Assembly: GCA_024635655.1 (NCBI GenBank)
Contig: JAGXIL010000039.1
Coordinates: forward strand, 1 to 64,000
Source of the DNA: Gillisia sp.
GTDB taxonomy: Bacteria > Bacteroidota > Bacteroidia > Flavobacteriales > Flavobacteriaceae
Length of the DNA stretch: 64,000 bases
Reading direction: 5' to 3'
A program made the position numbers and the translations under genes. Positions 60,727 through 63,858 of this stretch are shown here, piece by piece. How positions within the stretch are numbered: the stretch's first letter is position 1; the number at the start of each line of letters is the position of its first letter. Below the pieces are notes generated by a model that worked only from the letters and a program-made list of their open reading frames with translations, made no database searches and was not told the DNA's origin.

Positions 60727-63700
60727 TCAATCTGCAATATTGGGACTAAGCCATTTTGTTGCGGTTTCCAGCGGAATCTCTTTACGTTCAGCAAAATCCT
60801 TTACCTGGTCTTCAGTGATCTTCCCCACCCCAAAATACCGGGCTTCGGGATTGGCAAAATAATAACCGCTTACACTGGAAGCGGGCCACATGGCAAGGCT
60901 GTCTGTAAGTTTTACGCCAATGGTTTCCTCTACTTTCAGCACTTCCCAGATACTCGGTTTCTCAAGATGATCGGGGCAGGCAGGGTATCCAGGCGCCGGT
61001 CTAATTCCTTTATAGGTTTCTTTGATCAACTCTTCGTTGCTCAGGTTTTCATCGGGGGCATAACCCCATTCATCAATTCTTACCTGCTTGTGAAGGTATT
61101 CTGCAAATGCTTCTGCCAAACGATCAGACAGGGCTTTGACCATAATGGAATTGTAATCGTCCAGGTCTTTTTCAAATTGATCTGCCATTTCCTGGGTTCC
61201 GAATCCTGTGGTCACACAAAAGCATCCTATGTAATCCTGAATACCTGTTTCCTTTGGTGCGATGAAATCGGATAAAGCAAAGTTTGGTTTCCCCTTGTAT
61301 TTTTTGGTTTGTTGACGCAGGGTTCTAAATCTCAGCTTTTTTTCTTCGGAATGATCCTCATACTGAATTTCGATATCATCATCATCCACTGTATTTGCCG
61401 GAAAGATCCCGTACACTGCTTTCGCCGTTAGCAGCTTTTCATCCAGGATCTTCTTTAGCTGAAGCTGTGCGTCTTTAAAAAGAATTGTTGCCTGCTCTCC
61501 CACTACTTCATCGGTAAGGATTGCCGGATATTTTCCGTGCAATTCCCAGCTTCGGAAGAAGGGCGTCCAGTCGATGAACTCCTCTAATTTTCTAATGTCA
61601 AAATCTTCCATGACGTGGATACCGGCTTTGTTGGGTTTAGTAATATTGGTATTTTTCCAGTCAATTTTGAACTTATTTTCCCTGGCATCTTCGATAGATA
61701 AATAATCCTTTACCTTGCCCCGCTTCAGGAAATTTTCCCGAAAGACCTCATATTCCTCCTTCAGGTCATCCATATATTTTCTGCGGGTGTTTTCCTTGAG
61801 CAGGTTTCCTACTACAGTTACTGCGCGGGAAGCATCGTTAACGTGAACTACTGCGCTTTTATATTGGGTATCTATCTTTACTGCGGTATGTGCCTTGGAA
61901 GTGGTCGCACCCCCAATTAATAGCGGAACACTGAAATCCTGCTGCTGCATTTCCTTGGCCAAAAAAACCATCTCGTCAAGCGACGGAGTTATTAATCCGC
62001 TAAGGCCAATAACATCAACATTTTCTTTTTTAGCCGTCTCAATGATCTTCTCCGGTGGCACCATCACACCCAGATCTATAATTTCGTAATTGTTACAAGC
62101 CAATACCACGCTCACGATATTTTTTCCGATGTCGTGTACGTCCCCTTTTACGGTGGCAAGAAGGATTTTTCCAGCCCCCCCCGCCCCCGAAGGGGGAGCT
62201 TTTTGAAGCTCTTGTGCAATCTCTTGTAAAACATTTTCTAAATTTGAAAGTACCTGGTCATTTGTAAAACGCACCACCCGGAAACCATGTTCTTTTAACC
62301 ATTTGGTTCGTTCCTCATCCTTCATTTTATTTTCCGGAAGTTCGTGGACCAACCCGTCAATTTCCACAATTAACCGTTCCTTTAAACAAACAAAATCAGC
62401 AATATATCCTCCAATTATATGTTGTCTCCTAAATTTAAAACCTTCCAGCTGCTTATTAGATAAGCAATTCCATAGAATGGTTTCGGTATGGGTAGGATTA
62501 TTATACCTCAATTTTTTTGCTAAATCTTTCATTAACCCATACAACATAGGATCTGCAGTCTTCCAGTATTGCTCCCCCTTAGGGGGCTGGGGGGCTTTCG
62601 CTTCCTCAATGTATGGCAGGAGATACGCCACCGCCTTTTTCATCACCCGTGCCGACTTTACCACCTGTGGCAGGAACATTTTTCCGCTTCCGAAAAGGTC
62701 ACCTACTACATTCATTCCGGTCATTAAATGTCCTTCAATAACTTCTATGGGCTGAGCTGCTTCCTGTCTGGCGATCTCTATATCTTCAAGGATGTAAGCG
62801 TCTATTCCTTTTACCAAAGCATGGGTGATGCGGTCCTGCAGGGGTTTTTCCCTCCAGGAAAGATCTACTTTATTTTCCCGCTCGGTGCCCACCACGTGTT
62901 CGGCAAAGGTTAATAACCTTTCGGTGGCATCATCGCGACGATCCAGGATCACATCCTCCACGTGATCCAACAGGTCCTTGGGAATATTGTCATATACATC
63001 CAGCAACGCCGGATTCACAATACCTATATTCATTCCCGCTTTTATCGCGTGATACAGAAATACAGAATGCATTGCCTCCCTCACCGGATTATTTCCGCGG
63101 AAAGAAAAAGAAACATTACTTACCCCACCGCTTAAACTGCAATGCGGCAAATTTTCTTTAACCCAGCGCACGGCATCAATAAAATCAATGGAATTGCGGC
63201 GGTGTTCTTCCATTCCTGTTGCTACCGGAAAAATATTTAAATCAAAGATGATATCTTCCGGAGGGAATTTCACCTGTTTGGTAAGGATGTCATAAGACCG
63301 CTGCGCGATCTCGATCCTGCGTTGAAAATTATCGGCTTGCCCAACTTCGTCAAAGGCCATTACGATCACTGCTGCCCCATAACGTTTCACCTTTTTGGCC
63401 TGGGCTATGAATTCTTCTTCTCCTTCTTTTAAACTTATAGAGTTTACCACACATTTCCCCTGCACTACCTGAAGCCCGGCTTCGATGATCTCCCATTTTG
63501 AACTGTCTATCATTATTGGCACCCGTGCAATGTCAGGTTCTGCTACTATAAGGTTCAGGAATTTCACCATGACTTCCTTGCCTTCAATAAGGCCATCATC
63601 CATATTAACATCAATGATCTGCGCCCCGCCATCTACCTGTTCCCGTGCTATGGCCAGGGCTTCTTCAAATTTCCCTTCATTGATAAGCCTCAGGAATTTT

Positions 63701-63858
63701 TTGGAACCCGCAACATTGGTACGTTCACCTACATTGACAAAATTGCTTTCAGGAGTAATTATGAGGGGTTCCAAACCCGAAAGTTTTAAAGGCCGCAGCT
63801 CTTTTTTCTTTCGCTTGTTTTCCAGTGAAGCGTCTTCAGCTATAATTGTCTTTCCCAT
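60727..63858 (-). CDS. metH: cobalamin-dependent methionine synthase (MetH, core part) with an inserted nuclease domain
   Basis: MetH methylates homocysteine using 5-methyl-THF and cobalamin. This 1043-residue protein lacks the homocysteine domain, which is a separate upstream gene (63860). The THF domain is at about 30-290 ([16 protein letters not shown]), the cobalamin cap at about 320-420, the cobalamin domain from 563 (GDVHDIGK, with the cobalt-binding His575), and the reactivation domain at about 720-1043 ([15 protein letters not shown]). Residues 422-561 are foreign: a DUF559 domain flanked by GC-rich repeats (separate entry). Without it the length is about 903, usual for the family. 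Whether the enzyme works with the insertion is unknown; the frame is intact. Confidence 0.92.
62173..62596 (-). mobile_element. DUF559 nuclease element inserted in frame in metH
   Basis: About 424 bp bounded by inverted repeats of 26-27 nt: 62173-62199, AGCCCCCCCCGCCCCC then GAAGGGGGAGC, and 62571-62596, the complement of AGCCCCCCAGCCCCC and TAAGGGGGAGC. Each end is itself a hairpin of C and G runs. The interior codes in the metH frame for a Vsr-like DUF559 domain (metH residues 443 to about 552; own Met443, MKDLAKKLR). Motifs are [30 protein letters not shown] and [11 protein letters not shown]. The fold is of the PD-(D/E)XK class. No intein splice motifs or target-site duplication were seen. 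Confidence 0.75.

Follow-up and report, generated by a model that had tools for sequence, protein, structure and literature searches.

A DUF559 Segment Lies in Frame within metH

The window analyzed in this work, a stretch of 64,000 nucleotides of DNA from Gillisia sp., contains a metH gene whose product carries a DUF559 nuclease domain between two of its own domains, which raises the question of what kind of element this segment is and how it spreads. A reading made from the sequence alone had proposed a mobile element that lands in frame in protein linkers and leaves the host protein functional. The features of the locus are as follows.

60727..63858, minus strand: host gene metH, a single open frame encoding 1043 aa with the insert
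62173..62596, minus strand: inserted element, AG...CT, 424 nt; borders from the two copies in the MetH of G252 and from empty sites
62571..62596, minus strand: terminal inverted repeat facing the 5' end of metH, AGCCCCCCAGCCCCCTAAGGGGGAGC, translated into 10 residues
62173..62199, minus strand: terminal inverted repeat facing the 3' end of metH, translated into 10 residues
62203..62529, minus strand: DUF559 (PF04480) nuclease domain, aa 444-552; Pfam E 2.2e-36 and whole-genome search
62344..62397, minus strand: predicted catalytic residues D488, E499, D501 and H505, invariant columns in alignments A1 and A2
62620..62838, minus strand: MetH cap domain (B12-binding_2), host, before the element; Pfam
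61891..62172, minus strand: MetH cobalamin domain (B12-binding), host, directly after the element; Pfam

The metH product scored above the cut-off of the NCBIfam family metH (TIGR02082), and Pfam recognized in it Pterin_bind, B12-binding_2 (aa 341-413), DUF559 (aa 444-552), B12-binding (aa 563-656) and Met_synt_B12. The sequence-only reading had taken positions 62173-62596 to be foreign to MetH, to encode a DUF559 nuclease and to occupy the linker between the cap and cobalamin domains, and all of this was borne out by the PF04480 match (E 2.2e-36), the element being located exactly between B12-binding_2 and B12-binding. DUF559/MTES_1575 was the only Pfam content of the 424-nt element. The inverted repeats of GC runs said to bound the segment were found as well (24 nt, 92% complementary, with 371 nt between them), and the frame is indeed open through both ends within the 1043-aa metH reading frame, the element being read through as 14 residues, the nuclease and 18 further residues. 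Removal of the segment had been predicted to restore a MetH of normal length, and the 902 host residues do align with the MetH of genome G001; by eye, the linker around the element is about 7 codons shorter than in relatives with an empty site.

The borders were defined by aligning the two copies of the element present in the MetH of G252, which extend from AGCCCCCC to GGGGGGCT with no likeness beyond. The window copy has the same ends, and positions 62173-62596 appear to be correct to the nucleotide. The metH genes of the window genome (G000) and of G001 differ by 0.086 replacement and 0.79 silent changes per site, which indicates purifying selection on the host; the inserts of this pair have reached saturation at silent sites (0.74, host 0.79), which makes these uninformative on transfer.

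Intein splice junctions usually consist of Cys, Ser or Thr and of Asn. The residues at the two junctions of the element in the window MetH are K|A and G|K, and no Hint or intein splicing domain was matched in the metH product by Pfam at E 0.001, so an intein was rejected. A group I or group II intron was rejected too, since Rfam gave no match up to E 1 over positions 61900-62900 and the metH frame is open through both ends. The earlier statement that the segment is neither an intein nor a group I intron was thereby upheld.

Empty and Filled metH Sites Coexist among Relatives

To look for an empty site, the whole MetH protein was searched against 60 relatives, 51 of which gave matches, and the best 30 loci were examined. 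The comparison of the site included 33 loci with those of the own genome, 28 of them being loci of other genomes with both flanks; the remaining ones were a partial locus (L009), the own gene (L001 and L004) and other DUF559 genes (L002 and L003). Among these 28 best-matching two-flank loci, the site was empty in 25, with a linker of 33-48 nt, and filled in three (G001, G010 and G030); a further filled metH, that of G042, was matched but lies outside the 33 loci. Since 25 of 28 loci were empty, the idea that all relatives carry the segment fails, and an old, fixed MetH domain was discarded.

An in-frame insert is present in G001 and G030. The G010 copy has C and G runs one base shorter at each end, and its host gene is split in three frames while the DUF559 frame is intact; this break may be real or may be a homopolymer error in the assembly. 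Within the same genus, insert-free metH genes have open frames of 900-917 aa in seven genomes (G002, G006-G009, G013 and G014), the frame of G003 is broken (719 aa), and the metH of G011 lies on two contigs.

Three genomes harbor a MetH with two copies of the element at two sites (G252, L263 and L270). In G252 (L051), the copies occupy the usual linker and a loop of the activation domain, and they are alike up to the repeats with only noise outside. In the two Flavobacterium MAGs, the copies agree at 380 of 454 alignment columns in L270, ends included, and at 303 of 465 in L263. At the second site the other MetH proteins displayed have 10-14 residues, except for G213, which has one palindrome in frame, and G030, which has a different repeat.

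DUF559 Is Inserted in Many Unrelated Proteins

PF04480 was present in at least 119 of 249 genomes of the family and at least 222 of 395 genomes of the phylum. We then asked which proteins host it by surveying nearly all listed PF04480 matches in frames longer than 300 aa (at least two from the phylum, G505 and G428, were omitted). Hosts were named in part by Pfam and otherwise by motif or by eye, each of the 18 labels having at least one Pfam-scanned member. Among the matches listed there were 133 distinct mid-protein insertions, that of the window included and two duplicates removed, in 18 kinds of host: MetH (44), LeuRS (32), RecG (12), IleRS (12), MetRS (6), HsdR (4), type ISP (3), Eco57I-type (3), UvrA (3), UvrD/AddA-like (2), HsdM (2), methylmalonyl-CoA mutase (2) and six further kinds with one each, plus two insertions without a host label; this sample is biased, since the 80 named loci were those scoring best against a profile in which MetH inserts abound. 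Adenine deaminase is among the hosts. LeuRS, MetRS, IleRS and MetH have at least two insertion sites each. Fusions near protein ends (HemD, HisD, HisF, IspF and others) form a looser set. The search for DUF559 within linkers of other proteins, which the sequence-only reading had called for, thus revealed unrelated hosts with the same architecture.

The Inserted Domain Resembles a Homing Endonuclease

The catalytic motif was found in 128 of the 133 insertions. In three of the misses DF is changed to DL with the Asp retained, and the other two are the LeuRS copies L090 and L092, whose catalytic residues are lost although the frame is retained. The conserved D, E, D and H are invariant both in alignment A1 (31 rows) and in the MetH alignment A2 (8 rows); the catalytic role of D488, E499, D501 and H505 is presumed from what is known of the PD-(D/E)XK/Vsr fold. 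Profile A1 matched 3hrl, an entry named Endonuclease-like protein, at E 1.2e-29, and the Mobile intron protein 3r3p, which we take to be I-Bth0305I, at E 6.9e-8; of the four presumed catalytic residues, only the Glu aligns identically in 3r3p, the others being Asp/Ala, Asp/Asn and His/Trp. Judged by these profile matches, the predicted nuclease of the insert is kin to a mobile-intron homing endonuclease.

In the available text of PMC3943268, I-Bth0305I is an example of the EDxHD homing family, whose enzymes have extended DNA-binding regions. That of PMC9403480 files a DUF559 gene under the EDxHD family. DUF559 is present too in VsrA of Caulobacter, a protein tied to DNA damage and proposed to act in mismatch repair. 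A DUF559/Vsr-like nuclease was also observed in what is probably a true intein, in a 717-aa protein of G162 (L091:3566-5716), its Intein_splicing match being below the cut-off.

The Genealogy of the Element Is Decoupled from That of Its Hosts

A tree of 97 DUF559 domains was built on 111 columns, with many forks open, the bootstrap not settled and some labels assigned by hand. The copies within LeuRS, MetH, RecG, IleRS and HisD (46 rows) fell together on one side of a branch with good support (100/93), the other side containing 41 free-standing copies, 8 from HemD and 2 other fusions. A supported group comprised the seven RecG copies, and the HemD fusions were a clade of their own. There is thus a lineage living in proteins, with site fidelity. 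By AU tests, a single clade was not rejected for the MetH inserts as a whole (p 0.47), for the LeuRS inserts taken together (0.472) or for those of the genus alone (0.116), and the case for separate lineages at one site therefore depends on contrasts in identity and at silent sites.

Such contrasts were observed in LeuRS, whose tree does not include the LeuRS of the own genome (L124) because the motif of the script was not matched; three metH pairs are absent from the silent-site comparison on the same ground. The hosts of G007 and G014 are 94.2% identical and their inserts 54.0%, with silent differences of 0.784 in the insert vs 0.456 in the host, and the host of G002 is 91% identical to those of G004, G006 and G014, their inserts being 51-53% identical. 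The inserts of G014 and G189 are 71.6% identical when the hosts are merely 72.7% identical, and in the G002/G007 pair the silent differences are 0.282 in the insert vs 0.582 in the host. The LeuRS of G015, a fragment 91-92% identical to the cluster of G002, G004, G006, G007 and G014, is empty. In three LeuRS pairs, the insert showed silent differences of 0.28-0.44 and replacement differences of 0.06-0.11, that is, purifying selection. By eye, the leuS insert of G006 (L094) is a mosaic, its left end being like those of G002 and G007 and its nuclease and right end like those of G004 and G014, with the switch near the repeat.

The distribution in recG was similarly patchy. G021 is filled and its genus mates G286, G277 and G287 are empty, with hosts 92% identical. 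In genus g146, which was inferred to be Flavobacterium from a duplicate pair on a shared contig (L221/L257), RecG was matched in 147 genomes, at least 9 of which have a filled gene, partial genes being possible among the rest. On a recG host tree of 32 rows (11 filled and 21 of the best-matching others), parsimony required 7 changes between filled and empty, 5 of them forced by supported branches. Three Flavobacterium pairs showed silent differences of 0.022 in the insert vs 0.216, 0.289 and 0.301 in the host, and G753/G765, the latter being partial, 0.151 vs 0.474. Over all filled pairs, which are not independent, silent differences were lower in the insert than in the host in 50 of 55, with p <0.001 in 9 of 55, the four pairs just given being among these nine; since the difference runs in this direction in so many pairs, mildly constrained silent sites may contribute to the signal. 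In G367/G563, the adjoining 40-codon windows of the host were low (0.12 and 0.14), the other windows ranging from 0.04 to 0.66 with a distant one at 0.04, and G367/G723 showed weakly low flanks (0.12 and 0.17) vs 0.216 for the host; the low flanks of G367/G563 would fit co-conversion.

The empty sites, the two copies per gene, the unrelated hosts, the patchiness and the decoupled genealogy agree with the earlier proposal of a mobile element landing in frame in linkers. The mode of spread has to be amended: landing in linkers stands, and spread looks mostly site-faithful and homing-like, to the same site in other genomes, with moves to new sites being rarer.

Palindromic Ends, Solo Palindromes and Scars

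GC hairpins were found around the domain at both ends in 43 of 72 mid-protein insertions and at one end at least in 65 of 72, vs 0.3% (both ends) and 8.6% (one or both) in random windows of the same loci (n=1215). In 41 of the 72 insertions the likeness between left and right ends exceeded the 95th percentile for random windows; the corresponding percentile for mismatched partners was exceeded in only 20. Of the 249 family genomes, 20 contained a strict palindrome, and none contained the reversed control. A strong DUF559 match was present in 17 of these 20 genomes vs 74 of the 229 others (Fisher 5e-6); the strict palindromes of G252 are only the ends of the element itself, and without this genome the co-occurrence is 16 of 19. 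As single-stranded DNA, the end hairpins were not more stable than shuffles (z -1.18 to 0.20), and for this reason no claim is drawn from folding energy. Host codons at the insertion site are usually replaced, and no target-site duplication was seen by eye at the metH or recG sites.

Solo palindromes and other repeats were also observed. In the own genome, a solo palindrome (APSNSPNGGEKAR) lies in frame in an apparent Eco57I-type restriction gene (L035, G000:C20:7901-7913), at the position where L220, L222 and L242 carry a full DUF559 element, and another one, 3.5 kb outside the window, is close to the stop codon of an open frame of 269 codons (L041, G000:C74:67522-67534). Two more free-standing DUF559 genes of this genome (L101 in G000:C42 and L102 in G000:C12) are situated among GC-rich repeats of a different type, e.g. 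CACCCCTCCTTGAATAAGGAGGGG and CCCCGCCACCCTTTAGGG. G061 is a genome with a multiplied palindrome, 37 strict copies accompanying a single DUF559 match, in leuS. The leuS linker of G020 (L127) and the second metH site of G030 (L006) contain in-frame repeats, of the GTCATTCCGAAC type and one reading SLSTRHAKLDSASQ, which suggests that such linkers gather several kinds of repeat.

Some sites retain only parts of the element. The leuS of the own genome (L124; G000:C55, about 67671-67780) has, by eye, a 141-nt in-frame linker with remnants of both ends and the nuclease gone, and the LeuRS of G042 and G020 have, also by eye, a single palindrome and a different palindrome, respectively. The recG of G751 contains a 36-nt in-frame scar made of the outer parts of both ends. 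With L090 and L092 as decayed copies, the element looks like passing through a cycle of gain, decay and loss.

DISCUSSION

The DUF559 insertion of metH is a discrete, palindrome-bordered, in-frame unit that occupies many linkers, is gained and lost, and has a history independent of that of its host gene. We infer, in addition, that it cuts the empty site, homes and leaves a working host enzyme. The explanation that we consider probable is a homing-like selfish element that does not splice and persists in its host protein as a translated domain. Such an element would consist of a Vsr-like DUF559 endonuclease between stop-free palindromic ends of GC runs, the unit being translated as linker, nuclease and linker. 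It would sit in interdomain loops that tolerate an extra folded domain, so that splicing would not be needed, and it would use the expression of a housekeeping host gene. The nuclease, made within MetH, LeuRS or RecG, would cut the empty allele, and repair would copy the element in, sometimes with some flank. Occasionally the element would reach another linker, a move in which its own palindromic ends or solo palindromes may take part, and the palindromes may assist in opening up such sites or delimit the copied tracts. Loss would take place by in-frame deletions leaving palindrome scars, or by decay of the nuclease with the frame kept.

It could be argued that the palindromes are the mobile part, REP- or MITE-like, and are mobilized in trans by a Y1/RAYT-type transposase or through palindrome recombination, with DUF559 as cargo. 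Palindromes do stand alone, in frame where others carry the full element (LeuRS L119, the second MetH site of L056, and L035) and in intergenic positions too; they outnumber the single DUF559 match in G061, and the own genome has two weak Y1_Tnp matches. Nevertheless, the 3.3 and 2.8 kb examined around the two Y1_Tnp genes contain no C4+/G4+ palindrome, and RAYT-driven spread is not supported by these two weak loci. The co-occurrence of palindrome and DUF559 across genomes (17/20 vs 74/229) and the retention of the catalytic motif in nearly all insertions speak against a cargo role, and we consider this explanation unlikely. A nested gene appears quite improbable: the nuclease would be made from an internal start, or the protein would be cut, read-through in the host frame being merely tolerated. 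A precedent exists in the ShiLan insertion, according to the accessible part of PMC11855218. In 22 of 31 rows, though not in the window copy, a Met closely precedes the conserved core (A1 column 24), and the split metH of G010, with its DUF559 frame intact, and the split leuS of G149 also favor such a gene. However, the nuclease lies in the host frame across many hosts, these two being the broken cases met, with the reservation that the count of insertions took open frames only and its 133 of 133 in frame is so by construction. Window residues Met438 (A1 column 12) and Met443 (column 17) are Met in only 4 and 3 of the 31 rows, respectively, so the start at Met443 that had been suggested for the window copy is unsupported.

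That the domain is a useful host accessory (e.g. for DNA or RNA contact or regulation), old and often lost, seems highly improbable. The purifying selection on the insert in three LeuRS pairs, the many nucleic-acid enzymes among the hosts and the persistence in frame of the degenerate LeuRS copies L090 and L092 would suit an accessory role, but the hosts also include such unrelated enzymes as MetH, adenine deaminase and methylmalonyl-CoA mutase, and the patchiness of the insert within a genus, its decoupled genealogy and the presence of two copies in one protein argue against it.

The homing-like, non-splicing element favored here has features of several known systems. With inteins that contain a homing endonuclease it has in common that it is in frame, patchy, site-faithful and co-expressed with its host; it differs in having neither a splicing domain nor the usual junction residues. 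Rickettsia palindromic elements (RPEs) are likewise palindromic mobile DNA that occupies unrelated protein genes in frame and is translated; the review description available in part (PMC10969869) gives them about 150 bp and a conserved peptide and names no enzyme, whereas the element described here carries a nuclease domain, appears to spread site-faithfully and belongs to another phylum. The insertion in the DNA methylase of phage ShiLan, as far as the accessible part of PMC11855218 describes it, is also non-splicing, leaves the host frame open, spreads like an intein and encodes a homing-type nuclease; there, however, the nuclease is of the HNH type and out of frame in a phage methylase, whereas here a DUF559 domain in the host frame, with palindromic ends, is found in many bacterial housekeeping proteins. 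With EDxHD/Vsr-like enzymes, as far as their partial description goes, the element shares the 3r3p profile match and lacks the extra DNA-binding region, the intron and the intein; the pattern of that family, i.e. empty and filled alleles and a genealogy decoupled from the host, is present, the AU tests being non-significant. As in transposons, terminal inverted repeats form the borders, but Pfam revealed no transposase domain in the element. In the literature searched, mostly at listing level and with subscription journals and preprints largely uncovered, no description of DUF559 as such an element was recognized.

Homing endonucleases inside coding genes are usually thought to require an intron or an intein. 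The present findings suggest another route, in which a homing endonuclease persists as a translated linker domain. In-frame palindromes (RPEs) and non-splicing homing (ShiLan) are both known. We hold it possible, at slightly less than even likelihood, that it represents a separate class of mobile element, i.e. autonomous, non-splicing "linker elements" distributed across the phylum, whose whole body, palindromes included, would be built for translation and whose endonuclease would be permanently a domain of many essential enzymes and home from there, the solo palindromes being the minimal non-autonomous form. The in-frame palindromic repeats known from Rickettsia would thereby gain a candidate enzyme. 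Selfish passengers may account for the "extra domains" in Bacteroidota LeuRS, MetRS, IleRS, MetH, RecG and UvrA, and the insertions provide a natural catalogue of loops that accept about 140 residues.
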